NCBI RefSeq assembly: GCF_009662475.1 | Contig: NZ_CP045571.1 | Coordinates: 2,044,501-2,108,500 of the forward strand | Length of the DNA: 64,000 nt | Direction: 5' to 3' | Source: Acidithiobacillus thiooxidans ATCC 19377 | Lineage (GTDB): Bacteria; Pseudomonadota; Gammaproteobacteria; Acidithiobacillales; Acidithiobacillaceae | Shown: in pieces, positions 23,423-43,464 of the stretch | Numbering within the stretch: the first letter of the stretch is position 1 | How the letters are laid out: every line of letters begins with the position of its first letter | Position numbers and translations under genes: made by a program | Notes under the pieces: model-generated | The model's database searches: none | Seen by the model: only the letters and a program-made list of their open reading frames with translations | Told to the model about the DNA's origin: nothing

Positions 23423-23439
23423 TTGGCACAGTTTCTGCT
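23423..23439 (+). promoter_or_regulatory. Sigma-54 (-24/-12) promoter of the RND operon
   Basis: TTGGCACAGTTTCTGCT carries the invariant GG and GC exactly ten bases apart and a full TGGCAC -24 block. Transcription would begin near 23450, leaving a leader of about 50 bases before the adaptor gene. Confidence 0.75.
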
Positions 23440-23500
23440 AATAGACAGGCAAACACTTTGGGCGTTGCTTAAGCTCATCAAACCTGCAAGGAACCTGTCC

Positions 23501-24637
23501 ATGAAAACAAACACCTGGCGTTATGCATTAGTTTGCGGCCCGCTCCTTTTGGGCATGGGTTTTGGCACGGCCCTGGCGGCCGCGCCGAGCCTCGTAACGG
23601 TGCAAACAGCGCCCGGCATTGGCCCCGTACTGGGGGGCCGGGTCATCCCGGCGTTTACGGTCACCCTGCGTGCCCAGTTGCCAGGCCGGGTCAAATTTGT
23701 GGCGGGTGAAGCCGGAATGCCCATTGCACCGGGCCAGCCTTTGGTGGCTTTGGATGACGATCAGCTGCTTGCCCAGAAAGCCCAGGCCATTGCGGCCTAT
23801 CAGGCCGATGAAGTCGCCCTGCACAACGGTTATTCCCAGTACGGATATCAGCTGTACAGTTATGACCCCCCCTCCTTCATGAACCCTTTTACCTGGATGG
23901 GCCAGGGCTTCAAGGCCATGATGGGCAACAGCCAGAATCCCTGGGCCACCTATCAATCCAATCTGGAAAACCGGAAAGCTACCGCCCTCAAGGCGCAAAC
24001 CCAGCTGGAGGCTTCAGCCTGGAGAATCCGTCAGATTGAGGCGGAGATGAACAACTCGGTTTCCATCGCCCCCTTTCAGGGCGTAGTCCTCGCAAAAGAG
24101 GTTAATCCGGGGGATATTGTGCAGCCCGGTCAGCCGCTCATGGTGCTGGGCAGTGGTGGACCCAAGCAACTGCTGGTCAAGGTGCCGGAAAGTCTGGCTG
24201 GCAATCTGAACCCCGGACAATCCCTGCCCGTCCATCTGGGCGATAACGCGGGCATGGTGAGTGGCAGGGTCGTTCATGTCGCCCCCCAGGCCAATCCCCA
24301 AACCCATACGGTGGCCGTCAAGGTCAGTCTGCCCCGCAATGCCGCCATCCGCGTCGGGGCGTACGCGACCATCAGTCTGCCCAGTTACGGCAGCTCTGCC
24401 CAGAATGAACCGGCCATTCCCCGTAGCGCCCTCATTCCCGGGACTTCTTTGCCCTCGGTGCTGGTGGATCATCACGGAGTGACTGAAATGCATGTGCTGC
24501 GCCTGGGTGGACCCTTGCCGGATGGGCAGATTCAGGTGCTGGCCGGACTGCGCGTGGGTCAGATCATCGTCAATGATCCCCCCGCCGGAATCGGGTCCGG
24601 TTATCAGCTCCAGACCAGCGCGTCTTCCGGGGAGTAA
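23501..24637 (+). CDS. RND efflux periplasmic adaptor (HlyD/MFP family)
   Basis: The chosen ATG gives a signal peptide MKTNTWRYALVCGPLLLGMGFGTALAAA. The 378 residues then show the membrane fusion protein order: a first barrel/lipoyl half (TLRAQLPGRVKFVAGEAGMPIAPGQPLVALDDDQL), a helical hairpin at about 95-185, the second lipoyl half (SIAPFQGVVLAKEVNPGDIVQPGQPLMVLG), a beta-barrel and a membrane-proximal domain. It would bridge the downstream permease to an outer membrane channel; no TolC-type gene is in the window. The -24/-12 promoter lies 60 bp upstream. Confidence 0.88.
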   Translation: MKTNTWRYALVCGPLLLGMGFGTALAAAPSLVTVQTAPGIGPVLGGRVIPAFTVTLRAQLPGRVKFVAGEAGMPIAPGQPLVALDDDQLLAQKAQAIAAYQADEVALHNGYSQYGYQLYSYDPPSFMNPFTWMGQGFKAMMGNSQNPWATYQSNLENRKATALKAQTQLEASAWRIRQIEAEMNNSVSIAPFQGVVLAKEVNPGDIVQPGQPLMVLGSGGPKQLLVKVPESLAGNLNPGQSLPVHLGDNAGMVSGRVVHVAPQANPQTHTVAVKVSLPRNAAIRVGAYATISLPSYGSSAQNEPAIPRSALIPGTSLPSVLVDHHGVTEMHVLRLGGPLPDGQIQVLAGLRVGQIIVNDPPAGIGSGYQLQTSASSGE

Positions 24638-24642
24638 GCGCC

Positions 24643-27600
24643 ATGCATAACGGTTGCCAAACCCCTGAGCCGGAAACCCCGGAAACCAGACCCTCGCGCA
24701 GTCTGGGATTGGCCGGTTCTATCGCGAAGATTTTTGTCAGTTCGCCGCTGGCGCCCCTGCTCCTGATCGTGCTGCTCGCGGCGGGCATTCTCGGCCTGAT
24801 TTCCACGCCCAGAGCTTCCAACCCGCAAATCTCCGTGCCCATGATTGATATTTTTGTGGGTTATCCGGGGCACTCCCCTGCCGAAGTCTCGCGCATGGTC
24901 AGTGATCCTCTGGAACGCATGATGAGCGAGCTGCCCGGCGTGCGCCACGTGTATTCGGTGTCGAATCGCGGCGAATCCATGGTCACCGTGCGCTTTCAGG
25001 TGGGCAGACGGATGGGTCCCTCCCTGGTGGAGGTCTACAACAAACTCGCCGCCAACATGAACCGGATTCCGCCGGGAGCCACCCATCCTCTGGTCCGTGC
25101 CAAGGGCATCAACAGCGTCCCCTTCATGACCTTTACGCTCTGGTCCCGGGAGGTCGGTCCCGCCACCCTCAACGAAATTGCCCGCACCGCGTTGCAGCAT
25201 CTCAAGCAGGTTCCCCAGACCGGGGAGAGTTTTATTGTCCACGGTCCTCAGGAAACACTGACCGTCGATATTCATCCGGGCCGCCTGGCCGCTTATGGCA
25301 TCACCCCGCAGCAGGTCGCACAAACGATCAAGGCTTCCAATGCCCAGACGGAAACCGGGCGGACCGATGTGCAAAACATGCAGATGCGCATTGTCACCGG
25401 ACAGTTTCTGCGCACGCCGGCAGAAGTCCGCAATCTGGTGGTCGGGGTGTATGAAGGAGAACCGGTGTATCTGTTTCAGGTGGCGCAGGTCCGACTCGGC
25501 CCCAGCGATCCCCACAGTCTGGTGACTTATTACCAGAAGGCTGGCAAAAATCAGCCCGAAGTGGATGGCGCTCCGGCGGTCACCATTGCCCTGGCCAAAA
25601 TTGCCGGCAGCAACGGCGTGACGGTCGCCCGGGCACTCATCCAGAAAATGCACAGCCTGGAAGGAACGGTCATTCCCGGTAATGTGCATGTCAGCATCAC
25701 CCGTGATAACGGCAAAAAAGCCAACGCCAAGGTCGATTCCCTGCTCTTCAAGCTTTTTGTCGCCACGGCAGCCGTCACCCTGCTGATTCTACTGGCCCTG
25801 GGATGGCGGGCGGCGGCTGTCGTGGTCATCACCATCCCGCTGATTTTGCTGATTACCGTGTTCTCGGCCTGGTTATTGGGGATCACCATCAATCGGGTCA
25901 GTTTGTTCGGATTGATTTTCTCCATCGGTATTCTCGTCGACGACTCCATCGTGATTGTCGAGAACGTTTATCGCCGCTGGCTGCAGGAAGGAACAACGTC
26001 CACCGAAACCCTCATTGATGCCGTGCGCGAAGTGGGTAATCCCACCATTCTGGCGACTTTTACGGTCATTGCCGCCTTGCTGCCCATGGGTTTTGTGGGC
26101 GGGATGATGGGCCCTTACATGGCTCCCATTCCGGTATTGGGTTCCGTGGCCATGCTTTTCTCCCTGTTCACGGCCTTCGCTCTGGCCCCCTGGTTGATGC
26201 TGCGCTTCAAACCCAGCCTGAAAACCCTGGAACGTATGCATAAGGGCGAACACCGGCAGGCCACCTGGTTGCGCAAATTTTTCCGGAACACCCTGATTCC
26301 GCTGATTCGCCGCAAATTTTATGGTCGCCTGTTTCTGGGTGGCATTGTGGTCGCGTTTTTTGCCAGTCTGGCGCTGTTTCTGGTCGAGTGGGTGCCTTTC
26401 ACCATGCTGCCCCATGGTAATTCCAGTGCCTTTAACGTCGTCATCAACATGCCGGCGGGTACCGCCATGCCGGTAACCGCCAATGTGACGGCCGAGGTGG
26501 TACAGAGCTTACAGGGGATGAAGGATGTCCGGGCGCTGCAAAGTTATGTGGGCACGCCGGAACCGTATGATTTCAATGGCATGGTGCGGCATTACTACCT
26601 GCGCAACCAGCCCTGGCAGGCCATGATTCATGTGCAGTTACTGGACAAAGCCGAACGCAGCGCCTCCAGTTCCGAACTCGCTGTCGTCGCGCGGCGGCTG
26701 ATTACGCCCATCGCGGCACAACACCAGGCCCATATTGTCGTCGTGCAAAGTCCACCGGGGCCACCGGTTTTGGCGCCGGTGGTGGCCGAAGTTTATGGCC
26801 CTTCTGCCGCCATCCGCGACGCGGTCACCCGGCAGGTGACGGCCGAATTTGCCCGGGCCAAAAACCTCACCGAGGTGGATAACACCCTGGAAGCCCCCCA
26901 TGACTACTGGCACTTTCATCTGAATGCCATCAAGGCGGGCATGGCCGGTGTGCGGCCCAGCGCCCTCAACGAAACCCTGGCGATGACCCTCGGTGGCTAC
27001 AAGCTGGGTAACTTTACGCCCTATGGTCAGAATCTTGCGGTACCGGCCGTACTGCAGGCCCCTCTGGCCCTGCGCAGTAATGTCTATAGTCTGGCGGCAC
27101 TTCCCGTACCCTCCGTCAGTTATGGCGCCGTACCTCTTTATACGCTGGGGCATTTTAATCGTGAGAGAGCGGAACAACCCATCTACCAGCAGGATCTCAA
27201 ACCCGTTGAATATGTGACGGCAGGCAGCAGGGGACGTCTGGACGCCCCGCTGTACGGCATGCTGGAAGTCGAAGATGCCCTGTCCGGTTATCTGACCCCC
27301 GACGGACACCCGCTGGGCATCGACTGGATCAGCGTTCCCAGCGGTAATCATGCCACGATCAAGTGGGGCGGTGCCTGGACCGTGACCTACAAGACCTTCC
27401 GGGATATGGGCATTGCCTTTGCCGTGGCCATTGTCCTCATCTACATGCTGGTAGTCTGGGAATTCGGGAATTTTGTCATCCCCGCCATTATCATGGTGCC
27501 CATTCCCCTGACCCTGATCGGGATTTTACCCGGTCACTGGCTGTTTGGGGCGAGCTTTACGGCCACATCCATGATCGGTTTCATTGCTCTGGCCGGCATC

Positions 27601-28425
27601 ATCGTGCGCAATTCCATTCTGCTGGTGGATTACTCCCAGCAAAGAGTAGCCGAAGGCATGCCGGTCATGGATGCCCTGATTGAAGCGTGCGCGACCCGTA
27701 CCCGGCCCATTGTGATTACGGCGCTGGCACTCATGCTCGGTTCCGCAGAAATCATCACCTCCCCGATTTTCCGGGGGATGGGTATTTCCCTGCTCTTCGG
27801 GGTCATGATTTCGACCATTCTTACCCTGCTGGTCATTCCTTTAGGCTGTGTCAGCGGTCGTGCTGCGTTCTGCCCGGCGGGGATGGATCTGGGTGACACG
27901 CAGCCGAACAATCCGCCCCCCTTCCCGTTTGCGCCCGCCAGCATGCAGGTCTCCCTGTCTCCCCGGGATAGTCTGGCGCGAAGCGATATTCAATCTGCAG
28001 CACTGGTTCAGGATACGCCACCCAAAGATGCTGGTCCCCTGACCATGACCCTGGAAATGATCGGACAGGATATTCGCGCCTTTTTCCGGGCCACTACCAA
28101 AATCCTGCTGGCTTTGCTCGGACAACTCTGGACCTGGCTGATGAAGCGCCCGGCCGCCCACAACAAGCCTGAAGCGCCGGGTCCGCAGTCGCCTTCAGGG
28201 CCCGTGAGCCCCCCTCAGGGGCCGGATGGATCATCGCAAGGGCCAACGAATCCTCACGCCTCAACTTCAGAAAGTACCAGCGGATCGGCCAAAAGTCCGG
28301 TCAGCGGGCAGAGCAATCCCGTCGCAACCAAAGCCGCTGAAACCACTGCGTCACCTTCACCCCGCGCCAAAGCGCGTGGCATTCATTTACGGTCATCCGG
28401 TTCCAAACCGAAAAAGGAGGATTAA
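24643..28425 (+). CDS. RND-family efflux permease with long Pro/Ser-rich C-terminal tail
   Basis: The 1260-residue inner-membrane pump follows the adaptor by 5 bp. It has an N-terminal helix, two large periplasmic loops and 12 helices; GILVDDSIVIVENVYRRW carries the Asp pair that relays protons, and the second half ends with the GMGISLLFGVMISTILTLLVIPL helix. RND permeases normally stop at 1020-1060 residues. Here some 190 further residues follow, changing from GDTQPNNPPPFPFAP to a Gly/Pro/Ser-rich stretch ending in a basic segment. The tail would be cytoplasmic and is unlike anything I know in the family. The substrate is not evident. Confidence 0.88.
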   Translation: MHNGCQTPEPETPETRPSRSLGLAGSIAKIFVSSPLAPLLLIVLLAAGILGLISTPRASNPQISVPMIDIFVGYPGHSPAEVSRMVSDPLERMMSELPGVRHVYSVSNRGESMVTVRFQVGRRMGPSLVEVYNKLAANMNRIPPGATHPLVRAKGINSVPFMTFTLWSREVGPATLNEIARTALQHLKQVPQTGESFIVHGPQETLTVDIHPGRLAAYGITPQQVAQTIKASNAQTETGRTDVQNMQMRIVTGQFLRTPAEVRNLVVGVYEGEPVYLFQVAQVRLGPSDPHSLVTYYQKAGKNQPEVDGAPAVTIALAKIAGSNGVTVARALIQKMHSLEGTVIPGNVHVSITRDNGKKANAKVDSLLFKLFVATAAVTLLILLALGWRAAAVVVITIPLILLITVFSAWLLGITINRVSLFGLIFSIGILVDDSIVIVENVYRRWLQEGTTSTETLIDAVREVGNPTILATFTVIAALLPMGFVGGMMGPYMAPIPVLGSVAMLFSLFTAFALAPWLMLRFKPSLKTLERMHKGEHRQATWLRKFFRNTLIPLIRRKFYGRLFLGGIVVAFFASLALFLVEWVPFTMLPHGNSSAFNVVINMPAGTAMPVTANVTAEVVQSLQGMKDVRALQSYVGTPEPYDFNGMVRHYYLRNQPWQAMIHVQLLDKAERSASSSELAVVARRLITPIAAQHQAHIVVVQSPPGPPVLAPVVAEVYGPSAAIRDAVTRQVTAEFARAKNLTEVDNTLEAPHDYWHFHLNAIKAGMAGVRPSALNETLAMTLGGYKLGNFTPYGQNLAVPAVLQAPLALRSNVYSLAALPVPSVSYGAVPLYTLGHFNRERAEQPIYQQDLKPVEYVTAGSRGRLDAPLYGMLEVEDALSGYLTPDGHPLGIDWISVPSGNHATIKWGGAWTVTYKTFRDMGIAFAVAIVLIYMLVVWEFGNFVIPAIIMVPIPLTLIGILPGHWLFGASFTATSMIGFIALAGIIVRNSILLVDYSQQRVAEGMPVMDALIEACATRTRPIVITALALMLGSAEIITSPIFRGMGISLLFGVMISTILTLLVIPLGCVSGRAAFCPAGMDLGDTQPNNPPPFPFAPASMQVSLSPRDSLARSDIQSAALVQDTPPKDAGPLTMTLEMIGQDIRAFFRATTKILLALLGQLWTWLMKRPAAHNKPEAPGPQSPSGPVSPPQGPDGSSQGPTNPHASTSESTSGSAKSPVSGQSNPVATKAAETTASPSPRAKARGIHLRSSGSKPKKED

Positions 28426-28429: not shown

Positions 28430-29389
28430 ATGACAAGCCCAACAACCCTTTCCCCCCGTAGCCACAAGCGCCTGTTCTGGCTGGGGGTGGCGGTCTGTAC
28501 GGCACTGGGCATGCAAGCCCAGGCCCTGGCGTCCGTGGACACGCCCTACTCCAGCCCATATTCGGGAATGCCGGGTCCTGACATGGCCAATAGCGCAACG
28601 TCTTCCGGCTGGTCGGAGACCCGTCCAGATCAAGCACTGCCAGCGCCAATGCCAGCAGACTCCACCTATGCCGAGTGGCATGGATATGCCCCGCACCGTA
28701 CATCCAGCTATCCCTACGAGACCAACGGCTGGCCTGCACCAACTGAAAATGCAGACAGCGCCTGGAACAGCGCAGAACAACAAGCCCCCCAGAGCACGCC
28801 ACCCGCTCCAGGCTGGAGCAACCATGAAGCTGCCATGCCTACAGCCACATTCAACGAAGTAGCGGACTGGGTTCCCCCACCTCCGGGTCCCTACCCCAAT
28901 GGGCCTGACGAAGGCGCCATAGATACTACGCCGCCAAGCTCTTCCCCGATGGCGATGGCGCCACAGGGATATGCCCCCCAGCAAGGATACGCACCCCAAT
29001 ATACCCCAGGACCAGCTTATGGTGGTCCGAATGCTGGCCCCATGGAGTCCATGCCCTACCGGGGCCCCAACATGCCCTGGCAAAACGCGCCGAGACCCGG
29101 TTATGGTGCGCCCTCTTATGGCCGACCAAACTTTGGCCCTATGGGACCCATGCCCTGGCAAGGCCCCAACATGCCTTGGCAAAACGCGCCCAGACCCGGT
29201 TATGGTGCACCGGCTTTCGGACCATCACCTTACGGGCCTAATCCTTACGCCCGCCCGCCTCAATACGGCCCACAATATGCTGGGCCAGATTATGGGGCAC
29301 CAGCCTACGGGCCATCACCCTATGGACCCCCTCCCGAAGCCCGGCCACCTCAGTCTTATGGCCCGCAGCCTGGTTATGGTTATCCATAA
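28430..29389 (+). CDS. Secreted Pro/Tyr/Gly-rich low-complexity protein
   Basis: AGGAGG sits ten bases before the ATG, 4 bp after the permease stop. A signal peptide (about residues 1-34, ending AQALAS) is followed by about 285 residues of Pro, Gly, Tyr, Ala and Asn. The unit NMPWQNAPRPGYGAP occurs twice (around 29070 and 29170), and shorter units of the type GPSPYGP continue to the end, which is PGYGYP. No catalytic domain is visible. A structural, surface or matrix role is inferred from composition; the final PGYGYP is shared with the protein encoded at 30067. Confidence 0.75.
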   Translation: MTSPTTLSPRSHKRLFWLGVAVCTALGMQAQALASVDTPYSSPYSGMPGPDMANSATSSGWSETRPDQALPAPMPADSTYAEWHGYAPHRTSSYPYETNGWPAPTENADSAWNSAEQQAPQSTPPAPGWSNHEAAMPTATFNEVADWVPPPPGPYPNGPDEGAIDTTPPSSSPMAMAPQGYAPQQGYAPQYTPGPAYGGPNAGPMESMPYRGPNMPWQNAPRPGYGAPSYGRPNFGPMGPMPWQGPNMPWQNAPRPGYGAPAFGPSPYGPNPYARPPQYGPQYAGPDYGAPAYGPSPYGPPPEARPPQSYGPQPGYGYP

Positions 29390-29434
29390 ACGGAAATATC
29401 GGGATATAGATCCGCCTGAAAAAAGGAGAACGCA

Positions 29435-29980
29435 ATGCAAAAAGCAAAATGGTTAAAGGTAGCCATTCTCTCTGCCGCAATGGGAACACTTTCCATACCT
29501 GTTGCTGCTTATGCCTGGGGGCCCTGGGGAGGCGAAATGCCTTGGTCCGGCTGGCAAAACCGCATGCCCTGGAGCGGTTATTCCAATCCCTGGCAAGGGA
29601 ATTCCGGACCATGGTCCGGTTATGGAGGTCCTTGGCAAGGTAATAGTGGTCCCTGGAGTATGGGTAGTTTCCGTATGACTTTTCCCCATTGGGGTCCGAT
29701 GAATTTCAATGGCAGTCCCTTTGGCGGCTACGGACGCCCCTGGTCCGGAGATGCGATGCCCTGGGGTGGTGGCGGTATGCCTTGGGGCGGGGGTGGCGGT
29801 ATGCCCTGGGGTGGTGGCGGTATGCCCTGGGGTGGTGGCGGTATGCCCTGGAGTGGTGGCGGCATGCCCTGGGGTGGTGGTGGCATGCCCTGGGGTGATG
29901 GCGGCATGCCCTGGAGTCCCATGTCCTCCATGAACCCCATGTCGCCAATGGGTCCCATGAGCCCCTGGAGTACCTGGTAA
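29435..29980 (+). CDS. Secreted Gly/Trp/Met-rich repeat protein (MPW repeats)
   Basis: AAAAGGAG precedes the ATG. The 181 residues open with a signal peptide cut after AYA, then PWSGYSNPWQGNSGPWSGYGGPWQGNSGPW, and from about 108 on eight consecutive MPW tripeptides separated by GGGG, GGGGG, SGGG or GDGG. The end is rich in MSPM. The repeated DNA unit is about 21 bp. Gly/Tyr-rich secreted proteins coat sulfur globules in Allochromatium, and by analogy this could be an envelope or sulfur-associated structural protein, but homology is not shown. It is paralogous to the following gene in its first half. Confidence 0.75.
   Translation: MQKAKWLKVAILSAAMGTLSIPVAAYAWGPWGGEMPWSGWQNRMPWSGYSNPWQGNSGPWSGYGGPWQGNSGPWSMGSFRMTFPHWGPMNFNGSPFGGYGRPWSGDAMPWGGGGMPWGGGGGMPWGGGGMPWGGGGMPWSGGGMPWGGGGMPWGDGGMPWSPMSSMNPMSPMGPMSPWSTW
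29756..29914 (+). repeat. 21-bp tandem repeat encoding MPWGGGG units
   Basis: Eight MPW codon triplets are separated by four or five mainly Gly codons, giving a unit of about 21 bp with small variations such as GGC/GGT and AGT for GGT. The unit count is likely to vary between strains through slippage or unequal crossover. Confidence 0.85.
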
Positions 29981-30066
29981 CACCATAATTCCCAAGTTTG
30001 GGGAGTGACATTGCAGTGGCGCCAACTGCAAGGCTTGTGGCGCAAAATGATCAAGGAGCAGATGTG

Positions 30067-30594
30067 ATGAATGCAAAACATTTTGGAAAAGTAGCCGCTT
30101 TGGCAGCAACACTCGGATGTGCAGGTTTACTGACAGCTTCGCCTGCTTTTGCCTGGGGATGGGCACCCTGGAATGACATGCCCTGGAGTGGTTACAGTAG
30201 CCCGTTTTCCGGCGACAGCGGCCCTTTCAGTGGTTATGGAGGCCCCTTTACGGGCAATAGTGGGCCCTGGGACATGGGCAGCATGAGTTTTAATGGACCG
30301 CACGGCGGCCCCATGCAATTCAGTAGTGGTCGCTGGGGTGGCTACAGCCAGCCATATAACGGGTATTACGGCGGTGGTTATGGTCGCGGAGCCTACAATG
30401 GTTACGGCTATCGGGATTCAGCCCCTGAAAATGCCTTTCCACCCGCAGAATCCGGATATCCTCAATACGGCAATTATAACAATGCCGATAATAATGCTTA
30501 CAACGCTCCTTCAGCACCACCGCAATACGCTAACAACAGCCAGCAATATGCCCCGCCACCCGGACCCTACCGTCCCGGTTACGGATATCCATGA
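30067..30594 (+). CDS. Secreted Gly/Tyr/Pro-rich protein, paralogue of the MPW repeat protein
   Basis: AAGGAG lies eight bases before the chosen ATG. The 175 residues start with a signal peptide ending SPAFA, then WGWAPWNDMPWSGYSSPFSGDSGPFSGYGGPF, which aligns with the preceding protein (MPWSGYSNPWQGNSGPWSGYGGPW) with Phe replacing Trp. The second half is Tyr/Asn/Pro-rich and ends PGYGYP, exactly like the protein encoded at 28430. It lacks the eightfold MPW block. Function unknown; a structural surface role is inferred. Confidence 0.75.
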   Translation: MNAKHFGKVAALAATLGCAGLLTASPAFAWGWAPWNDMPWSGYSSPFSGDSGPFSGYGGPFTGNSGPWDMGSMSFNGPHGGPMQFSSGRWGGYSQPYNGYYGGGYGRGAYNGYGYRDSAPENAFPPAESGYPQYGNYNNADNNAYNAPSAPPQYANNSQQYAPPPGPYRPGYGYP

Positions 30595-30691: not shown

Positions 30692-31303
30692 ATGAAACGA
30701 ACTTTGGGTAGAATCATTGGGTTTATTATTCTGGTGATCATTGTGCTGGTAGTGATTGCTGCCATCCAGGATCCGCAACTCTGGCGTCATGACTGGCAGA
30801 CGACACGGCAATATACGGTGCAAAAATGGCAGGCAATGCATCATTGGTGGGAAAAACAGGAAAGCAAACCCACTCCGGTAGCACATCCTGCAACAGTGCC
30901 GATCACAGCCACCGCACCAAAACTACAGCCGGGCGTGGCTGTGCAGCAAGCAACCCCGGTTACCCCGCACGTTAAAATCGTCTTTCCGAAAAACCTTACC
31001 GGGTCTCAGTATGCTCTGTTAATGGCTGCAAGACGGGCGTTTTGGGAACATGACGTGAAAGCCGCCATTGCCGATTATCAGGCATTAATTGATCAACTGC
31101 CTGAAGTACCGCAACTGTATGGCGAATTAGGCAACATTTATTACCAGACTGGTCATCCTTTATCTGCTGGCAAGGCCTATTCCGGTGCTGCCCGAACGCT
31201 AATTGCAACGCATCAATATCCTTCTGCCGCAGCATTATTACCCCTGATCAGTTCTCTGGACCCGAATCAGGCCACCATCATCCGCCAGGCACTGGCACGT
31301 TAA
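30692..31303 (+). CDS. Membrane-anchored protein with TPR-like domain (paralogue 1 of 3)
   Basis: The 203 residues have a strongly hydrophobic N-terminal anchor (about 8-26), a linker, and a C-terminal helical domain of about 100 residues: YALLMAARRAFWEHDVKAAIADYQALIDQLPEVPQLYGELGNIYYQTG and AGKAYSGAARTLI. The same domain recurs in the next two genes. The helix pairs resemble tetratricopeptide repeats, which usually bind other proteins. AGAGG stands close before the ATG. Function unknown. Confidence 0.7.
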   Translation: MKRTLGRIIGFIILVIIVLVVIAAIQDPQLWRHDWQTTRQYTVQKWQAMHHWWEKQESKPTPVAHPATVPITATAPKLQPGVAVQQATPVTPHVKIVFPKNLTGSQYALLMAARRAFWEHDVKAAIADYQALIDQLPEVPQLYGELGNIYYQTGHPLSAGKAYSGAARTLIATHQYPSAAALLPLISSLDPNQATIIRQALAR

Positions 31304-31322: not shown

Positions 31323-32141
31323 ATGAGTGACATCCGAGAAGAACCGCAGTTACATTCAGAAGATGCCCCGACCAGCGGCACAGAATATGCCGCAGAAACA
31401 AAAGCCAACTTGCACGGCACAACGGAAACTACATATAGCGAGACTGCGCAAAGCCATCATGAAGCTGACCGGCCTGAAATCCATTCGGATGCGGACACAG
31501 CTGCAGCGGCAGCAGCGGCCGCCGCTGCAGCAGCCGCTGCGGCGTCAAGTTCCAGTTATAGCAGTTACGCTCCACCCCCTCCCCCTCCTGCACAAAAAGC
31601 AGGATTTTTGAGCCGCTTTTGGGGATACCCACTGATCATTTTGATCTTGCTGATCATCATTGTGATTCTGTTTATTTGGGCCATCACCGCCAATCAGCCC
31701 GATAATACCCACGTAGCAGTTGCCGCCAAACCCGCGCAAAAAGTCCTGCATGTCACCAGTGCCCCCAGCATTGCGGCCATCACCCAAAACAGCAAACCGT
31801 TGACCGCCGATCAGACCAAGTTGCTCATGCAGGCACGCGGAGCTTTCTGGCATCACGACTATGCCGGTGCTATTGCGGATTATCATCATTTGATTCAGGA
31901 AGCGCCTGACTCCCCTGCTGCCTATGGCGAAATGGGTAATGTGTTGTACATGACCGGTCACTATCACCAGGCGGGCAACGCTTATGGCCAGGCAGCCATG
32001 CAACTGATTCATGCCGGACGTTATGCCGATGGTGCCGCGCTGATTCCTATTCTTGGACGTCTGGATCCTGCGGAAGCACAAAAAGTGCAGGAGGCGCTGT
32101 CCCATTCACCCGAAGCCGAAACCGGGATGCCACCGGCCTGA
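31323..32141 (+). CDS. Membrane protein with poly-Ala tract and TPR-like domain (paralogue 2 of 3)
   Basis: AAGGAG precedes the ATG. The 272 residues are ordered as an acidic polar cytoplasmic segment (1-60), fifteen consecutive Ala residues written with mixed GCN codons, a Ser/Pro linker, one membrane helix at about 103-125, and a C-terminal TPR-like domain (LLMQARGAFWHHDYAGAIADYHHLIQEAPDSPAAYGEMGNVLYMTG). The domain aligns with those of the genes on both sides. The stop overlaps the next start (TGATG), so translation is coupled. Confidence 0.7.
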   Translation: MSDIREEPQLHSEDAPTSGTEYAAETKANLHGTTETTYSETAQSHHEADRPEIHSDADTAAAAAAAAAAAAAAASSSSYSSYAPPPPPPAQKAGFLSRFWGYPLIILILLIIIVILFIWAITANQPDNTHVAVAAKPAQKVLHVTSAPSIAAITQNSKPLTADQTKLLMQARGAFWHHDYAGAIADYHHLIQEAPDSPAAYGEMGNVLYMTGHYHQAGNAYGQAAMQLIHAGRYADGAALIPILGRLDPAEAQKVQEALSHSPEAETGMPPA

Positions 32142-32653
32142 TGGTAAGCTGCACAAAACCCACCCGATGGACAGTAACACTGCTATCTGTCGGGTTTACA
32201 GTCTGCATGGCGGCTGCACAAGCCGGGGTTACATCCGCTTTGTCGCGTCCAAAATCCGGATGGAACCATCATTACATTCAGCAGCTGATGCAGGCACGCC
32301 AAGCCTACTGGCAAGGCAACCCATTGCGCGCCATTCAGGAATATGCGCAATTAATTCATCATGCCCCCCAGCGGTATCTGGCAGATCTCTATGGAGAACA
32401 GGGCAACGTTTATTACCGGATAGGCGCATTTTACGCGGCGGGAAATGATTACATTCATAGTGTTAGAAATCTGATCCGGGAGAAAAACTTGCGTGGTGCC
32501 CGCACACTGATTCCCATCGTCGCACAAATCAATCCAAATGCAGCCTATCAGCTGACGATCCAATTAAATCATCAGGAGACAAACCATCATGGCGGAACAA
32601 CCGACTACGCAAACACACTCGCAGTCTCAGCATCATATCGCCGGCCTTTCTGA
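32141..32653 (+). CDS. Exported or anchored TPR-like protein (paralogue 3 of 3)
   Basis: The 170 residues begin with a signal-like hydrophobic segment (about 9-29) and go straight into the domain shared with the two genes before it: YIQQLMQARQAYWQGNPLRAIQEYAQLIHHAPQRYLADLYGEQGNVYYRIG. It lacks the long linkers of its paralogues. Its last 65 bp overlap the next gene in another frame. The TGATG overlap with the gene before indicates coupling. Function unknown. Confidence 0.65.
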   Translation: MVSCTKPTRWTVTLLSVGFTVCMAAAQAGVTSALSRPKSGWNHHYIQQLMQARQAYWQGNPLRAIQEYAQLIHHAPQRYLADLYGEQGNVYYRIGAFYAAGNDYIHSVRNLIREKNLRGARTLIPIVAQINPNAAYQLTIQLNHQETNHHGGTTDYANTLAVSASYRRPF

Positions 32654-33089
32654 CCGCCAGCTCAGACTGATCGTCTACGCGGCCCTCGTCGCATTTCTGG
32701 TCCTCGCCGCTTATGAGTTTTATCTGGCCGTGGAAATGTCGCATGACCTTCATGAAATGACCAAACAGTTCCAGAAAATGAGTCCCAACATTCAACGCAA
32801 CATGAACAGCATGTCACAAAACATGGCAGAGATGACCCATTCGACCAACTACATGGCCCGGGCCACCGGACAAATGCAGGCTGAATTCTGGAGCCTGAAC
32901 CGTAACATCACCCCACCCTTTTCTTTTCTGAGTGGCATGTTGCCCTTCAATCACAATGATCCGGACTATGGGCCCAAAGCCCCTCTACCCCCTCCCCGCC
33001 AAGAAGCCTATGATGGAGTTCCACCGGGATATAATCCGCAATATCAAAGTGGCTATCCGTATCAGGGGAATGCTTATGGCAACCACTGA
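32589..33089 (+). CDS. Membrane protein with coiled coil and Tyr/Pro-rich tail
   Basis: AGGAG is found at 32574, ahead of the ATG, which lies inside the preceding gene. The 166 residues have one membrane helix at about 30-50 (LIVYAALVAFLVLAAYEFYLAVE), an amphipathic Met/Gln/Asn-rich segment (MTKQFQKMSPNIQRNMNSMSQNMAEM) likely to form a coiled coil, and a tail with PPGYNPQYQSGYPYQGNAYGNH. The tail resembles the low-complexity proteins encoded upstream, which ties it to the same system. No known family. Confidence 0.65.
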   Translation: MAEQPTTQTHSQSQHHIAGLSDRQLRLIVYAALVAFLVLAAYEFYLAVEMSHDLHEMTKQFQKMSPNIQRNMNSMSQNMAEMTHSTNYMARATGQMQAEFWSLNRNITPPFSFLSGMLPFNHNDPDYGPKAPLPPPRQEAYDGVPPGYNPQYQSGYPYQGNAYGNH

Positions 33090-33123
33090 GGCTGATGTCG
33101 AGGTGCTGGCCAAGGAGAAAAAA

Positions 33124-34500
33124 ATGGCATCGCTGAGCACTGAACTGGAAACCCTCTGCGAGGTTTTGCCAGAATTACTGGATTCCATGGACGCCGGCAT
33201 TCTGCTGACCGACATTCAGGGAAAAATTGAATTCTGCAACGCCGCCGCCAAAATCCTGTTGAACACGCACCCACTGGAGCACCTGCGCAGCATACCTGGA
33301 GGTAGCGTCCAGAAAGAACTGGTGCGAGCGGCCATTGCCGCCGGTCAGGAAGATGCGGTGAGTCGTCCGCAAACCGGCTGCGTCCGCTGGGATCATCTGC
33401 TTCCCGTTGCCGAAGGCGAGCACAAGGTCCTGCAGATCAGAACCCGACTGGTAGAGCGCAAACAACATAAACGCCGCATTTTTTTCATCGAAGATGTCTC
33501 TGAATTGCGTCATGCCGAGCGGATTCTGGGTGGCACCCGCAGTGTGGGTTTTATTACGGATGATCCGCACATGCGCGATGCCCTCGAATTGATTGAGCAG
33601 GTCGCAGCCACCGATGCCAGCGTCATTTTTCAAGGCGAATCGGGGTCTGGCAAAGGCTTGATGGTCCGCCTGCTGCATCAACAAAGTAACCGCTCCAAAA
33701 AATCCCTGGTGGAAGTGAATTGTGCCGCTATACCCGATAATTTATTTGAAGCCGAGTTTTTCGGTTCAGTAAGGGGAGCATTTACGGGAGCAGTGACAGA
33801 TCGCATTGGCCGTTTTGCGGCAGCAGATGGTGGCACACTCTTCCTCGATGAAGTCAGCGAACTGCCCAAACATCATCAGGCCAAACTGCTGAAGGTGCTG
33901 GAAGACATGCGCTATGAACCGGTCGGCAGCACCAAAACCCATCAGGTCGATGTGCGCGTGGTTGCTGCCAGCAATCGCAATCTCAAGGAACTGGTAGAAA
34001 ATGGAGATTTTCGCAGTGACTTGTTTTATCGGTTGAATGTGATCCCTATCCGCATTCCGGCACTGCGGGAAAGGCCCTCGGACATCATGCTCCTGGCCGA
34101 ACATTTTTTGAAAATTACTACAGGAGGACACAAGAAAAGGCTGGGCTCGGCGGCCAAACATCTACTCCTGGATTACCCCTGGCCGGGAAATGTGCGTGAA
34201 CTCCGCAACGTGATGGAATATGTGGCCATCTGCAGTGCCGGACCGGAAATCAGTGACAGTGATTTTCCCAAAGACTTCCTGGACAGAATGCACTTGGGGT
34301 CGGCCGTTACTTCCAGCCGATCAGAAAACGATCCGGAAGCCATTTATGATCGGGAAAGTCTTTTGCAGTTATTGGATAAACACGGGGGCAACCGTGCCGC
34401 CGCCGCTCGTGAATTGGGGATTGATCGCGTAACCCTGTGGCGGCATTTGTCCCGCCTGGGCATTTCCGGAAAAGAGGGTAGCAGTCATCTCGGGCATTGA
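33124..34500 (+). CDS. Sigma-54-dependent transcriptional activator with PAS-like sensor
   Basis: The ATG preceded by AAGGAG was chosen, giving 458 residues; ATG 33076 is an alternative. The N-terminal 120 residues resemble a PAS domain ([29 protein letters not shown]). The AAA+ domain has Walker A GESGSGKG, the sigma-54 contact loop GAFTGA, Walker [10 protein letters not shown] and arginine-finger region [22 protein letters not shown]. The C-terminal Fis-type helix-turn-helix is [20 protein letters not shown]. There is no phosphoacceptor receiver domain, so the signal is probably sensed directly. Both -24/-12 promoters in this window, at 23423 and 36975, are natural targets. Confidence 0.9.
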
Positions 34501-34553: not shown

Positions 34554-34949
34554 CTAGATTTTTGACATCGCAGAAAAACTTTTGACAAAAGGTCCTGCCA
34601 TCCGTGGATCTTTGAGCATACTCGCGTAGTCTCCTACCTTGAATTTGATTTTTCCGGTGGTAAACGCCATGCCCAGGCCCGTCATACCCGGAGACTTCTC
34701 TATCCACTTCAGCCACTGCGGATGCTGGGCGCGAATATCCCAGTTTAAAGGCTGGTCCGTATAAACACCGGAAGCCGTTGCCTTGCCGTTTTGTACCACC
34801 AGAAAAGCACGGGGTTTTTCTTCTTCCGGATAACCATAAGCAATGACCGAATTAAAGCCAATCTGGGCAAGAGCGTCAGAAAGCTCGGGATCCTTGTTCC
34901 ATTCCTCAACAAAACGAGCCATCCAGGCGGGTGAAAATAAATCTGCCAC
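34554..34949 (-). CDS. SCP2-like sterol/lipid-binding domain protein
   Basis: The GTG start follows GGAGG at good spacing. The 131 residues look like an SCP-2 fold: FVEEWNKDPELSDALAQIGFNSVIAYGY at the start, AFLVVQNGKATASGVYTDQPLNWDIRAQHPQWLKWIE in the middle and TTGKIKFKVGDYASMLKDPRMAGPFVKSF at the end, the typical position where the family lists helix-forming GKxxxxGDxxxLxxL. SCP2-like proteins bind lipids or hydrophobic ligands. It faces the activator gene. Another SCP2-like protein is encoded at 54471. Confidence 0.6.
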   Translation of the reverse strand: MADLFSPAWMARFVEEWNKDPELSDALAQIGFNSVIAYGYPEEEKPRAFLVVQNGKATASGVYTDQPLNWDIRAQHPQWLKWIEKSPGMTGLGMAFTTGKIKFKVGDYASMLKDPRMAGPFVKSFSAMSKI

Positions 34950-35418: not shown

Positions 35419-35460
35419 GAGGACTATCTCCTTCAAAAAAGTGAATCCGATAACCATCTA

Positions 35461-36625
35461 GTGTAGTGTTGCATTCTTGGTGAACCTTAAGGTTAATGAT
35501 GATAAAATAGCTCCATGTTGAGGGTATGAATGGAGTCGAGCCTTGCGAGTTGCGCCCACAGTCACTTTAACCAGCGAAGAGCGGTCCGAGTTGTCCCGTA
35601 TAGTCGCCTCCCGATTAAGCAGTGTCCGCTTGTCATTACGGGCACGGATGATATTGCTGGCGGCAGAGGGCTTGCAGAACAAAGAAATTGCGGAGCGCCT
35701 GGGGGTGGATCGCCTGCAAGTCGCACGTTGGCGCAAGCGTTATCTGGAACACCGCTTGTCGGGCATTGAACGCGATTTACCGCGCGGCGCCCCTCCGGTG
35801 AAAGTGGATGTGGCCCGTCTGGTAGAATTGACCACGCAGAGTAAGCCGGAAGCGATGACGCATTGGAGTACGCGTAGGATGGCGGCAGAACTGGGTGTCA
35901 GTGCCGCCAGTGTGTCACGGCATTGGCGCAAGCATGGCCTCAAGCCTCATCTGCTGCGTGGTTTCAAGGTGTCACGTGACCCGCATTTTGTGGAAAAGCT
36001 GGAAGATATTGTGGGGTTGTATATGTCTCCCCCGGAGCATGCCTTGGTGCTCTGCGTGGATGAAAAAAGTCAGGTACAGGCCCTGGACCGGACCCAACCG
36101 GGACTCCCCCTCAAAAAGGGCCGCGCAGAAACGATGACCCACGACTACAAACGTAATGGCACTACGACCTTGTTTGCCGCCCTCAACGTGCTGGATGGTC
36201 AGGTCATCGGACAGTGTCAACAGCGCCATACCCATGTGGAATGGCTGAAGTTCCTGAAGAAAATTGATCGGCAGACGCCCAGGGACAAGGCTCTGCATCT
36301 GATTGCCGACAACTATGCGACCCATAAACACCCGGTAGTACAGGCGTGGCTCGACAAGCACCCGCGTATTCACATGCACTTCACGCCCACTTCGGCATCC
36401 TGGCTCAACATGGTCGAGCGTTTCTTTCGGGATATCACGACCCAGCGGTTACGTCGTGGGGTGTTCACCAGTGTGCCTGAACTCATCCAGGCCATTGAGG
36501 GGTACATCGACCACCACAACACCCATCCCAAACCTTTCATCTGGACCAAAACCGCCCGCGACATCCTGCAAAAAGTCATTCGCGCCAACAGCCATTTAAG
36601 CAGCAAACAGAATGCAACACTACAC
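35461..36625 (+). mobile_element. IS630-family insertion sequence, copy 1 (complete)
   Basis: The element is 1165 bp, with inverted ends GTGTAGTGTTGCATTCT and AGAATGCAACACTACAC, flanked by TA on both sides (35459-35460 and 36626-36627), the target duplication expected of IS630/Tc1. It encodes one transposase. A second copy of identical length lies at 62114-63278, differing by only about ten bases, so movement is recent. It sits in the region between the leftward small genes and cydA. Confidence 0.93.
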
Positions 36626-36628
36626 TAG
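35543..36628 (+). CDS. IS630-family transposase
   Basis: The 361-residue protein has an N-terminal helix-turn-helix (GLQNKEIAERLGVDRLQVARWRKRYL), a second one (RRMAAELGVSAASVSRHWRKHGLKP), and a DDE catalytic core with LCVDEKSQ, LIADNYATHKH and SWLNMVERFFRDI. The TTG start follows GGAG. The TAG stop is formed by the duplicated TA plus the first flanking G, so it lies outside the element. All catalytic residues are present and the gene looks functional. Confidence 0.92.
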   Translation: MRVAPTVTLTSEERSELSRIVASRLSSVRLSLRARMILLAAEGLQNKEIAERLGVDRLQVARWRKRYLEHRLSGIERDLPRGAPPVKVDVARLVELTTQSKPEAMTHWSTRRMAAELGVSAASVSRHWRKHGLKPHLLRGFKVSRDPHFVEKLEDIVGLYMSPPEHALVLCVDEKSQVQALDRTQPGLPLKKGRAETMTHDYKRNGTTTLFAALNVLDGQVIGQCQQRHTHVEWLKFLKKIDRQTPRDKALHLIADNYATHKHPVVQAWLDKHPRIHMHFTPTSASWLNMVERFFRDITTQRLRRGVFTSVPELIQAIEGYIDHHNTHPKPFIWTKTARDILQKVIRANSHLSSKQNATLH

Positions 36629-36974: not shown

Positions 36975-36991
36975 TTGGCACATAAAATGCT
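36975..36991 (+). promoter_or_regulatory. Sigma-54 (-24/-12) promoter of the cydAB-sqr genes
   Basis: TTGGCACATAAAATGCT has GG and GC exactly ten bases apart and the full TGGCAC block; it shares the first seven bases TTGGCAC and spacing with the RND promoter. Transcription would start near 37002, giving a 70-base leader. Confidence 0.75.
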
Positions 36992-37072: not shown

Positions 37073-38521
37073 ATGTTGATCGAAAATACGTTACCCGTTT
37101 TACTCAGCCGTCTCGATTTTGCCTGGATTACCTCGCTGCATATTCTCTGGACGCCCATGACGATTGGCATGTCGTGGCTGCTTTTCGGAATAGAAGTCCT
37201 CTGGCTCCGCACCGGGGATGAGCGCTGGTACAAACTCAATCGTTTTTTTGAAAAAATATTCATTATCAATTTCGGTGCCGGGGTGGCGACGGGTGTCACC
37301 ATGGAAATGGCCTTCGGGATTCTGTATGGGCCATTTTCTCAGGCAGTCGGCCCCTTTTTCGGCAACATTCTCGGCTTTGAAACCATCACCGCATTCATGT
37401 ATGAAGCGGGATTTATTGGTCTGATGGTTTTCGGCTGGGGAAAAATCAGTAAAACCATGCATCTTTTTGCCACCTTCAATGTCGGCATTTCTTCCACTTT
37501 ATCGGCCGGCTGGATTCTGGTGGCGAATTCCTGGATGCAAACGCCCGACGGAGTCGTCTTTAAAAATGGGCTGTTTCAGGTCAGCAACTGGTGGAGCGCC
37601 ATTTATAACGACAATTTTCATTGGGGATTTCCGCATATGTGGATCGCCTGCGTAGAGCTGGCTCTTTTTGTTTTTGCCGGCGTCAGTGCCTGGTTCATCC
37701 TTAAGAACCGCAACACTGAACTTTTTGTAAAGCTGCTCAAACCAGCGCTCCTGGCACTGCTGATTGTGACCCCTTTGCAGATTTATCTGGGGGATACGCT
37801 GGGGCGGGACGTCGCCCAGACACAGCCCACCTCTCTGGCCGCCATGGAAGGGCATTACCATACGTATCTCCCCAATGGCCAGGTCAATACCGGCTGGCAC
37901 CTGATTGCCATACCCAACAGCCAGAATGACGGTACCCGATTTGCGATTACCATTCCTTACGTCCTGAGCCTGCTGGAAACCCATACCTTGACCGGCAAGG
38001 TGACGATCATGGACAGCTTCCCTGCCCGTGATCGTCCGGATGTCTGGGTGCCTTTCTATGCGTTCCGGATCATGGTCGCCATTGGCTTTTTCCTGTTCCT
38101 CGTCGCTCTTTGGGGTAACTGGCTACGCCTGCGGGGCAAGCTGAATGCGACGGCTCTACGCCAACACCCGTGGTTTCTCCGGGCCGTCGTTTTCTCGGCA
38201 TTTTTACCCTATCTGGCGATCTGGACGGGCTGGTGGGTGCGCGAAATCGGTCGGCAACCCTGGGTAGTCTTTGGCATGATGCGCACCTACGAAGGAGTCA
38301 GCCACATGTCGCTGGGCCAGGAAGTGGTCTGGTTCGTGGGCTACATTATTTTTGAGTTGGCCGTCTGGTCGGGCGCCTGGTACTTCTTCAGCCGCGTCAT
38401 CCAAAAAGGCGTGAATGACATTCCGGATTCCACCCATCTCTGGGACAAACCGGAAACCATCGACAGTGGAGGTGGCCATGTGTCCCCCCATTTTACCAAA
38501 GCATTGCCACACCGAGATTGA
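37073..38521 (+). CDS. cydA: Cytochrome bd ubiquinol oxidase subunit I
   Basis: Subunit I of the bd quinol oxidase binds haems b558, b595 and d and reduces O2 to water with quinol electrons. AGGAG precedes the ATG. In 482 residues one sees the N-terminal haem-ligand His in TSLHILWTPMTIGMSWLLFG, the conserved GFETITAFMYEAGFIGLMVFGW helix with its Glu residues, and the signature EIGRQPWVVFGMMRT. The length is shorter than the 522 of E. coli CydA and suggests a short Q-loop, as in cyanide-insensitive types. cydB follows after 12 bp and sqr after that, so quinol made by SQR can be oxidised directly. Confidence 0.95.
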   Translation: MLIENTLPVLLSRLDFAWITSLHILWTPMTIGMSWLLFGIEVLWLRTGDERWYKLNRFFEKIFIINFGAGVATGVTMEMAFGILYGPFSQAVGPFFGNILGFETITAFMYEAGFIGLMVFGWGKISKTMHLFATFNVGISSTLSAGWILVANSWMQTPDGVVFKNGLFQVSNWWSAIYNDNFHWGFPHMWIACVELALFVFAGVSAWFILKNRNTELFVKLLKPALLALLIVTPLQIYLGDTLGRDVAQTQPTSLAAMEGHYHTYLPNGQVNTGWHLIAIPNSQNDGTRFAITIPYVLSLLETHTLTGKVTIMDSFPARDRPDVWVPFYAFRIMVAIGFFLFLVALWGNWLRLRGKLNATALRQHPWFLRAVVFSAFLPYLAIWTGWWVREIGRQPWVVFGMMRTYEGVSHMSLGQEVVWFVGYIIFELAVWSGAWYFFSRVIQKGVNDIPDSTHLWDKPETIDSGGGHVSPHFTKALPHRD

Positions 38522-38533
38522 GGAGAACCCATC

Positions 38534-39622
38534 ATGACCGATCTCATGGGTAGAATTGCCGTGTCCCTGTCCACCTGGTGGTGGTTGATTCTCGCCTTGT
38601 TTTTTATGCTTTACGTGATGCTGGATGGCGCCGATCTGGGGGCTGGCATTTACACCCTGTTTTCGCACGACGAGGAAGAACGCGGGGCGGTCATGGCTTC
38701 CATGGCCGGATTCTGGGACGGAAACGAAACCTGGCTGGTGGTTGCCGGCGGGGTCCTCTTCGGGGCTTTCCCGGTGGTCTACGGCTCTGCTTTGAACTAT
38801 CTCATGATCCCGTTGATGCTGGCCTTGTGGGGGATTATTTCCCGCGCTGTCGCTTTTGAATTTCATATTCATGCGCGCAGCAGCAAACGATTCTGGGGCT
38901 GGGCCTTTGCTCTCGGCAGTCTGATCGCTCCCTTTTTTGCTGGCGTATCCCTGGGTGCCACCTTGCAGGGTTTCCCCCTGAAAGCCGGACGGGCCCTGGA
39001 AATACAGGGACACGGTCTCCCTGCTTCCACGGATCCGGTACTCCATTATTCCGGACAGGCCTTCACCTTCTTAAGTCCTTTCAGTATATGGGTCGGTTGC
39101 GGGGCCGTCATTGCGGCAGGCCTTGCCGGTGGACTGTATTTATGTGCCCGCTTCATACCGGGAGACCCCATTCATGAACGCGCCCGCAAGTGGACTACCG
39201 TATTTTCCTTTCTGGCGCTGATCGCCATTCTCGTCACCTTAATCTGGTCCTACGCGATTTTCCCCTGGGCAGCGGCCAAATGGAGCGGTGCCCATTGGTG
39301 GATCTGGGCGATCTGGCTGGTCATTGTGCTGTTCTTTGCCTACAAATCGATGATCAATCATTCCCTGCAGCGGGATATTGCCGCCCTGCTCTGGGGCGAG
39401 GGTGTGGTGGCACTTCTCTGGATGGCCATGTTCGCCACCATGTATCCCTATGTCGTGCCAGAAACCTGGCCCATCGCCCTATCCGGCAATCCAGCCAACT
39501 CCCTGGCGGTCTTCACCTTGTTCATGACGGGATTTGTGCCGGTCATGATCATGTACAACTGGTATCAGATTTGGGTCTTTCGGGGGAGGTTAAGCAAAAA
39601 AGCCGCATACGGTGGGCATTGA
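38534..39622 (+). CDS. cydB: Cytochrome bd ubiquinol oxidase subunit II
   Basis: The 362-residue integral membrane partner of CydA has about eight helices. The family start is clear: LYVMLDGADLGAGIYTLF with the conserved Asp pair, then GFWDGNETWLVVAGGVLFGAFPVVYG. A GAGGAG Shine-Dalgarno lies just before the ATG and overlaps the end of cydA. No small CydX-like gene was found between cydB and sqr. Confidence 0.94.
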   Translation: MTDLMGRIAVSLSTWWWLILALFFMLYVMLDGADLGAGIYTLFSHDEEERGAVMASMAGFWDGNETWLVVAGGVLFGAFPVVYGSALNYLMIPLMLALWGIISRAVAFEFHIHARSSKRFWGWAFALGSLIAPFFAGVSLGATLQGFPLKAGRALEIQGHGLPASTDPVLHYSGQAFTFLSPFSIWVGCGAVIAAGLAGGLYLCARFIPGDPIHERARKWTTVFSFLALIAILVTLIWSYAIFPWAAAKWSGAHWWIWAIWLVIVLFFAYKSMINHSLQRDIAALLWGEGVVALLWMAMFATMYPYVVPETWPIALSGNPANSLAVFTLFMTGFVPVMIMYNWYQIWVFRGRLSKKAAYGGH

Positions 39623-39646
39623 AAATCTATCTTTAGCGGATGTTGA

Positions 39647-41023
<1,377 letters not shown>

Positions 41024-41067: not shown

Positions 41068-41097
41068 CCGTTATCTTTTCAAAGGAGGACAAATGTG

Positions 41098-43036: not shown

Positions 43037-43056
43037 GAGGGGCATCGCTTTACCTG

Positions 43057-43294
43057 GTGTAGTGTTGCATTCTTGATGAAACTTAAGGTTAATGAGGATA
43101 AAATAGCTCCATGTTGAGGGTATGAATTGAGTCGAGCCTTGCGAGGTGAAAGTGGATGTGGCCCGTCTGGTAGAATTGACCACGCAGAAACGATGACCCA
43201 CGACTACAAACGTAATGGCACTACGACCTTGTTTGCCGCACTCAACGTGCTGGATGGTCAGGTCATCGGACAGTGTCAACAGCGACATACCCAT
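43057..43294 (+). mobile_element. IS630 remnant with two internal deletions
   Basis: The left end GTGTAGTGTTGCATTCTTG and about 70 following bases match the complete copies, then GTGAAAGTGGATG... and AAACGATGACCC... follow, each after the loss of a few hundred bases, and the match stops in the codons for RHTH. Changes such as GATGAAAC for GGTGAACC show greater age than the two intact copies. No right end is present. Confidence 0.88.
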
Positions 43295-43464
43295 CCGGAA
43301 TATCCGAAGCCGCTACCACGCCTCCGCAGCGCATGGCTTCCACTCCGGAAAAATCAAAGCCCTCCCCCACGCTGGGGCACACCGTCACCACCGCCTGCCG
43401 GAATAACAAGCGCAGGGCTTCGGCAGGCACACTATGGAGCAAAAACAGACTGCCCTGCTCTATC
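43295..43464 (-). pseudogene. Fragment of the glycosyltransferase gene at 48425
   Basis: These 170 bases match 48638-48807 without gaps at roughly 95% identity. They encode the part of a GT4 glycosyltransferase around [19 protein letters not shown]. Directly after it, CTTTGGATAAGATTTT at about 43475 matches the same gene again near 49680, so the fragment is a copy with an internal deletion. It is joined to the truncated end of the IS630 remnant. Confidence 0.85.

Follow-up and report, generated by a model that had tools for sequence, protein, structure and literature searches.

Probable sulfur globule protein counterparts of Acidithiobacillus thiooxidans in a conserved gene cluster of sulfur-oxidising Gammaproteobacteria

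Introduction

What is the role of three short, low-complexity secreted proteins, encoded one after another directly behind a pump of the resistance-nodulation-division (RND) family in a sulfur-oxidising acidophile? The question is raised by a 64,000-nucleotide stretch of Acidithiobacillus thiooxidans ATCC 19377 (hereafter the window; positions 2044501–2108500 of the single-contig, 3.42 Mb genome, G000). Here an RND permease gene is followed on the same forward strand by the genes for P0003 (28430..29389; 319 aa), P0002 (29435..29980; 181 aa) and P0001 (30067..30594; 175 aa). An initial annotation had suggested that these proteins form a layer for contact with hydrophobic sulfur, or an envelope comparable to that of sulfur globules. 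Our comparative analysis of sequences indicates that they are probably the acidithiobacillal counterparts of sulfur globule proteins (SGPs), coating or scaffolding a periplasmic sulfur store. The support for this comes from gene order and distribution rather than from sequence similarity or experiment. The conserved SGP cluster, to which the three genes belong by position, is the larger finding.

The three genes occupy the slots of a sulfur globule protein cluster

We followed the cluster through a marker, a transmembrane protein with a coiled coil (A3; 32589..33089, + strand, in the window; "coil protein" below). This protein is found in 78 of 369 genomes of the class, in 38 families by label count. 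The Pfam family of SGPs, PF17228, which we take to include SgpA and SgpB of Allochromatium vinosum, is found in 55 of the 369, in 54 of them over the cut-off. The two coincide: the coil protein is present in 52 of the 55 SGP genomes, as against 78 of 369 overall (Fisher 8e-40, kinship ignored).

Around coil matches, 32 loci were retrieved in two sets. The first 12 were taken from the best coil matches before the SGP matches were known (G273, G368 and G161 being passed over), while many of the second 20 were picked for a nearby SGP match. In 7 of the first 12, a small exported Gly/Tyr protein that begins with WWG lies a few kb or less from a ParA gene. Four of these WWG-type proteins were compared with the Pfam SGP model (cut-off 26.7 bits), scoring 56.2, 40.0 and 25.7 bits and, for L080, nothing. 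In the second set, RND genes were seen at 14 loci, SGP-type genes at 9 and a dynamin-like gene at 8.

The arrangement that emerges is a homologous RND gene followed by a PPPPGPY protein (slot 1), a Trp-ended protein (slot 2) and a Pfam SGP (slot 3), and then by ParA, tetratricopeptide repeat (TPR), coiled-coil and often dynamin-like proteins. The neighbours are homologous to those in the window: the RND proteins are 46–60% identical, and the membrane-fusion protein (MFP), TPR, coil and ParA proteins also correspond. For 22 loci we analysed the interval from the RND gene to the next marker, with signal peptides flagged by a crude rule of our own. Left aside were L079, L081, L082, L105 and L108–L112, which have no RND gene in the stretch, and L075, a near twin of L074 with an RND gene and no SGP-type gene seen. 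L071–L073, short contigs without an RND gene, were kept because ParA and an SGP-type gene occur there. Of the 22 loci, 13 show the PPP(P)GP motif in slot 1, 13 a Trp among the last three residues of slot 2, and 16 an SGP-type slot 3 by our own profile, 6 of which match by construction since they supplied the profile (L071, L072, L076, L077, L078 and L080); all three features occur together in 10. The strict motif PPP.?GP[YF] is found in 13 of the 1143 open reading frames (ORFs) of these loci, and all 13 are slot-1 ORFs. The PF17228 cut-off is also exceeded in slot 3 at further genes, for example in G108, G215, G233 and G319.

The window proteins are slot-for-slot counterparts of this arrangement, with P0003 (WVPPPPGPYP) in slot 1, P0002 (ending STW) in slot 2 and P0001 in slot 3, where the SGP stands elsewhere. 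The likeness to Sgp proteins proposed in the initial annotation thus holds for gene order and distribution, the interval behind a homologous RND gene being where an SGP lies elsewhere, but not for family membership by sequence. In the SGP clusters of other families (L071–L081, L093–L107) we also observed a recurrent DUF4412 protein, a small transmembrane protein (W9) and the dynamin-like GTPase; our own profiles of the DUF4412 protein and W9 found no match in the window or in L033, a second locus of the same genome described below.

The cluster marker is associated with genes of sulfur oxidation. Among 39 coil-positive genomes (every second of the 78), soxB is present over the cut-off in 33, dsrA in 29 and at least one of them in 37, the exceptions being G385 and G266, the latter 55% complete with dsrA present as a 114-bit fragment. 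Among 37 coil-negative genomes (an even subset of 291), the corresponding numbers are 9, 6 and 11. The difference, 37/39 versus 11/37, has a Fisher value of 1.6e-9, again ignoring kinship.

Sequence features of the three proteins

As the initial annotation stated, the three ORFs are consecutive and follow the RND gene; they open at the ATG codons of positions 28430, 29435 and 30067. The P0001 ORF has an alternative earlier start (TTG, 29998), while its signal peptide begins at 30067. Each protein opens with an n-region, a hydrophobic stretch and an AxA-type site, that is, with a Sec-type signal as judged by eye without a predictor program. Given these signals, it is unlikely that the RND pump exports the three proteins, and we reject the earlier suggestion that this operon does so.

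The mature parts contain neither Lys nor Cys. P0003 is Pro-rich; P0002 is rich in Trp, Met and Gly and carries an MPWGGGG array; P0001 has GP[FW]xGYG heptads and a Tyr-rich tail. The tripeptide MPW does occur in each protein: P0003 has three (two of them as MPWQNAP), P0002 ten and P0001 one. The initial annotation counted MPWGGGG eight times in P0002; the array does have eight MPW units, but only five of them are exactly MPWGGGG. Two further reported signatures are plain in the translations: P0001 and P0002 have PWSGYS and SGYGGP in common, and P0003 and P0001 end in PGYGYP.

A conserved core with a seven-residue xPWxGxx repeat is common to P0002 and P0001, which can be aligned over MPWSGYS..GPWxMG..GPM; the core alignment of 17 rows (A2) has 19 invariant columns. 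Pairs of Pro with an aromatic residue or Met recur with period seven in P0001 (p 0.0075), in P0002 (0 of 2000 shuffles) and in a paralogue, P0004 (p 0.001), and the same shuffle test gave no such recurrence in P0003 (p 0.50). On account of this missing period and a loose alignment, P0003 is not a clear homologue of the other two. At the DNA level the P0002 array is a 21-bp tandem repeat of 7.4 copies, the sole tandem array reported within the window; it is the xPWxGxx heptad expanded with a 21-bp period.

Compared with Acidithiobacillus sp. HP-2 (L028), dN/dS is 0.19 for P0003, 0.10 for P0002 and 0.16 for P0001; compared with A. marinus (L024), it is 0.12 for P0003, at a high dS of 1.99, and 0.06 for P0002, dS being saturated for P0001. 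Values of 0.06–0.19 therefore indicate that the three genes are constrained by purifying selection. Structural prediction, one of the checks named in the initial annotation, was carried out for P0001 and yielded no fold: the AlphaFold2 model made with its family has a pLDDT of 49.4 and a single helix, that of the signal peptide. A PDB sequence search using the core profile gave no match, and NCBIfam offered no name for the core or for the SGP-type protein, with weak matches far under the cut-off at most.

Distribution of the core in acidithiobacilli and beyond

A profile search finds the core in 11 of 57 relatives, every one of them among the 29 genomes of its own family, at two or three copies per genome. 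With P0001 alone as query one more genome was matched (12 of 57), namely G020, at E 3.9e-4 and with stops. The coil marker occurs in the same 11 genomes among 31 searched, so that core and coil share the same 11 of the 29 family genomes. Thus the genes are conserved together in relatives, one of the two points on which the initial annotation had staked its proposal. Rusticyanin is present over the cut-off in 8 of the 57, and none of the 11 core genomes has any match to it (Fisher 0.012, kinship ignored); a further 10 genomes of the family lack both. The cluster therefore avoids, within the family, genomes with this iron-oxidation gene.

The core is conserved across its own family and present in a second one. 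Among the 369 class genomes it was found in its own genome, G180 and G385, the last two representing one other genus, and a search of 398 genomes of the phylum returned its own genome only, plus a weak fragment with stops in G485. In G385 (L049) the cluster has an RND protein 60% identical to that of the window and ends in a dynamin-like GTPase; in G180 (L050) core genes, ParA, TPR, coil and GTPase are seen on a contig that stops short of the RND gene. The 29 Acidithiobacillus-family genomes lack the dynamin-like GTPase, bar two weak partial matches.

Of six named contigs with P0001 relatives, five are from Acidithiobacillus or Igneacidithiobacillus and the sixth is a cave metagenome-assembled genome titled Desulfobacca. 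A copy of the cluster from pump to activator (L038; RND 93% identical) was likewise observed on a contig whose title reads Desulfobacca acetoxidans (isolate SulCav) and which is most likely a misbinned Acidithiobacillus contig.

The pump operon and its surroundings

The operon begins with the MFP, or periplasmic adaptor (23423..24637, +; HlyD_D23, 60 bits), whose likely start is an ATG near 23501 and whose orthologues adjoin the RND gene in relatives. The RND permease (24643..28425, +; PF00873, 480 bits) belongs, with this HlyD-type adaptor beside it, to the ACR_tran family. Behind the three secreted proteins come TPR protein 1 (30692..31303, +; TPR_19, 26.8 bits), with an N-terminal hydrophobic segment; TPR protein 2 (31323..32141, +), also with a hydrophobic segment, below the cut-off for TPR_19 and TPR_2 and matched by a hidden Markov model (HMM) of our own that was partly built from it; and TPR-like protein 3 (32141..32653, +; weak TPR, E 0.36; own HMM 75 bits). 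The coil gene is followed by a PAS-AAA-Fis activator of sigma-54 (32932..34500, +; Sigma54_activat 218 bits and HTH_8, with PAS below the cut-off); its first-start ORF overlaps the coil gene, and its true start lies further in. In relatives the order is MFP, RND, P0003-like, P0002-like, P0001-like, TPR, coiled-coil transmembrane protein and sigma-54 activator, as seen in nine loci, some ending at contig edges, plus L038. In L027 (G010) the P0001-like gene is missing beside the operon.

On the opposite strand next to the activator is a conserved 131-aa protein (34554..34949, −) with a weakly indicated SCP2-like fold (model pLDDT 68.7; top Foldseek matches of SCP2 type, best E 0.012). It has no Pfam name and also adjoins the cluster in G385 (L049). 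Further on are cydA, cydB and a flavoprotein gene (37073..41023, +; cytochrome bd I and II, Pyr_redox_2), the last of which we call sqr-like, taking over the label of the initial annotation as an assumption. The same order is found in HP-2 (L028), and L027 has the sqr-like gene alone. The gene after it (41044–41964) has no Pfam match and is kept in both HP-2 (L028) and G010 (L027).

The third core protein of the genome, P0004, is encoded 1.0 Mb from the window trio. In relatives it belongs to a second unit, P0004-like–ParA–TPR–pyrC. Acidithiobacillus sp. HP-2 (L028) has this unit after cydAB-sqr; in A. marinus (L024) and A. montserratensis (L029) it stands next to the pump operon. In the window genome the P0004-ParA-TPR unit is at C1:1.059 Mb (L033). 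The gene order of the window is that of relatives up to 43036, after which remnants of a transposase element (43054..43301, +; BLASTN) occupy the place that the unit has in L028 and L027. For this reason the cluster was probably split in the window genome by a transposase element. Two such elements, 99% identical, lie at 35443–36700 and 62111–63281, the remnants being a third copy.

Predicted sigma-54 type regulation

Sites of the −24/−12 type were scored by mismatches to the sigma-54 consensus. Only two sites in the window have at most one mismatch, and each has exactly one. The first (23424..23439, +) precedes the pump operon, lying inside the first-start MFP ORF and upstream of the likely true start; it is identical in L038 and related in L049. 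The second (36976..36991, +) precedes cydAB and the sqr-like gene and recurs in L028. At up to two mismatches the window has no excess over chance (45 against 48.7), the only threshold for which a chance expectation was computed. Across 13 loci there are 25 sites with at most one mismatch, and 12 of 260 ORFs have one within the set distance. Of these 12, 11 are MFP (3 of 7), P0004-type (6 of 9), cydA (2 of 2) or SCP2-like (1 of 9) genes, with the limit that several sites are orthologous copies and hence not independent. The P0004 unit, 1 Mb away, has retained a perfect predicted site (L033, 7919). From these predictions, cydA, cydB and the sqr-like gene probably fall in the same sigma-54 regulon as the pump operon.

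Discussion

We propose that an undescribed, ancient cluster of sulfur-oxidising Gammaproteobacteria, comprising an RND pump for sulfur or its lipid partner, three secreted, disordered coats and proteins of the ParA, TPR, coiled-coil and dynamin-like kinds, might build, position and remodel a periplasmic sulfur store. In the acidophiles the coats would have been rebuilt from xPWxGxx heptads and wired through sigma-54 to sqr and cytochrome bd. For this wider proposal the scales stand about level. On the narrower reading of the three proteins as sulfur globule protein counterparts, the PAS/sigma-54 activator would switch the gene sets on when reduced sulfur is present, and the three proteins would cross into the periplasm via Sec. 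Their xPWxGxx heptads and Tyr-rich tails may then self-associate, wet the hydrophobic sulfur surface and coat or scaffold the store. The RND-MFP pump would move a hydrophobic partner, polysulfur or lipid, and not the proteins, and the ParA, TPR and coiled-coil proteins could place the store at the inner membrane.

Several observations weigh against the sulfur globule reading. No Pfam family is matched at E≤1 by P0001, P0002, P0003 or P0004, and PF17228 has 0 matches in the whole genome; aligned by hhalign with seven SGP-type proteins, the 19-row core family is matched over 35 columns only, covering the signal peptide and the first Trp. At the coil loci L074, L075, L093, L094, L096, L097 and L103 no SGP-type gene was seen, and 11 of 37 coil-negative genomes have soxB or dsrA without the cluster marker. 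If genome G021 is that of A. caldus, and if A. ferrooxidans is among the genomes with rusticyanin, then the distribution of the cluster is the reverse of that expected from reports, cited in PMC3440390, of A. caldus without and A. ferrooxidans with intracellular globules. Moreover, Alvin_2516, which follows sgpD in the A. vinosum genome, is not regulated by sulfur (PMC10386293). On the other side, the portions of the articles used here describe sulfur globules inside A. thiooxidans cells, by transmission electron microscopy with energy- and wavelength-dispersive spectroscopy (PMC7082400), and large intracellular sulfur globules in A. albertensis (PMC5731081).

Direct membership of the window proteins in PF17228 was rejected, there being no HMM match and no profile homology beyond the signal peptide and first Trp. 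A bridging protein in slot 3 of L106 (AWGPGWGGPGWGG..) scores 41.4 bits against PF17228. It hints, within the limits of low complexity, that SGP and core proteins could be of one stock.

Two other functions could account for secreted proteins of this kind. They might lie on the outer surface or outside the cell, as a layer by which the cell attaches to solid elemental sulfur, crossing the outer membrane after Sec. Low complexity, richness in Trp, Tyr and Met and a Lys- and Cys-free mature part are also features of adhesive coats, and the limitation of the core, within the family, to genomes without rusticyanin is in keeping with such a role. However, no outer-membrane partner was recognised among the ORFs of the operon, the rest of the genome not having been searched for one, the ParA, TPR and coil proteins suggest the inner-membrane side, and in A. 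vinosum the Sgp proteins examined lie in the periplasm (PMC10386293). Of surface layer and periplasmic globule coat, the surface layer is the less likely. The RND-MFP pair, the weakly SCP2-like neighbour and the seven coil loci without a recognised SGP gene would instead suit a general trafficking of envelope lipids or hydrophobic compounds, with the secreted proteins as periplasmic adaptors or chaperones that have no direct link to elemental sulfur. Such a role fits poorly with soxB or dsrA in 37 of 39 coil-positive genomes and with the coil protein in 52 of 55 SGP genomes, and we regard it as rather improbable.

A third alternative denies function altogether, taking the MPWGGGG array as neutral, microsatellite-like growth of a 21-bp unit in an unimportant exported protein. 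Copy number of the array does differ between relatives, and no other tandem array lies in the window, but a dN/dS of 0.06–0.10 for P0002 and the conservation of the core across one family and into a second contradict this for the core, and it is very improbable as an account of the proteins. The reading of the three proteins as sulfur globule protein counterparts is the one that we favour.

No description of the cluster was found in the open-licence PMC literature searched, and the part of PMC11267869 used here contains nothing on it. In the A. thiooxidans report of globules, the main text is without any term starting with sgp (PMC7082400). A review names the accumulation of sulfur globules as an important subject for work on the truncated Sox pathway of acidithiobacilli (PMC6335251). 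In the sections considered here of the known Sgp literature, no transport or positioning machinery is tied to globule proteins beyond the adjacency, in A. vinosum, of sgpD to a gene for an exporter of hydrophobic or amphiphilic compounds and to a regulator (PMC10386293). With SGP-type proteins encoded beside RND, ParA and dynamin-like GTPase genes, the building, positioning and emptying of globules become open to study by gene deletion. The heptad proteins are an unusual Lys-free, Trp-rich natural material for studies of protein-sulfur contact. Altogether the cluster suggests, short of proof, how sulfur-oxidising acidophiles package sulfur.

Among known systems, the pump resembles RND systems of the AcrB/MexB/CmeB type in its PF00873 domain, its upstream adaptor gene and its Asp-Asp pair (GILVDD), and the solved chains nearest to the cluster RND are those of multidrug pumps. 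An Arg in GIIVRNS stands at what we take to be the position of AcrB Lys940. Unlike these systems, no outer-membrane factor gene was recognised beside the window RND, which has a C-terminal extension and, at the end of the permease domain, an invariant Cys (Cys1069) that all 17 aligned cluster RNDs have in common; 12 of them carry another Cys eight positions further along. The segment concerned, residues 1069–1077 (27847–27873) with an IP[LM]GC motif, is a possible sulfane or metal site. SgpD of A. vinosum (Alvin_2515), compared by description only, is like the window proteins in that its mature part begins with Trp; it differs in having two predicted helices, perhaps a coiled coil, and is reported to be almost restricted to Chromatiaceae. 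Compared with the PF17228 proteins, those of the window lack a sequence match and have xPWxGxx heptads and an enrichment in Met and Trp instead, but they share the Sec-type signal, the Trp at the mature start, the richness in Gly, Pro and Tyr, and the same slot in the cluster.

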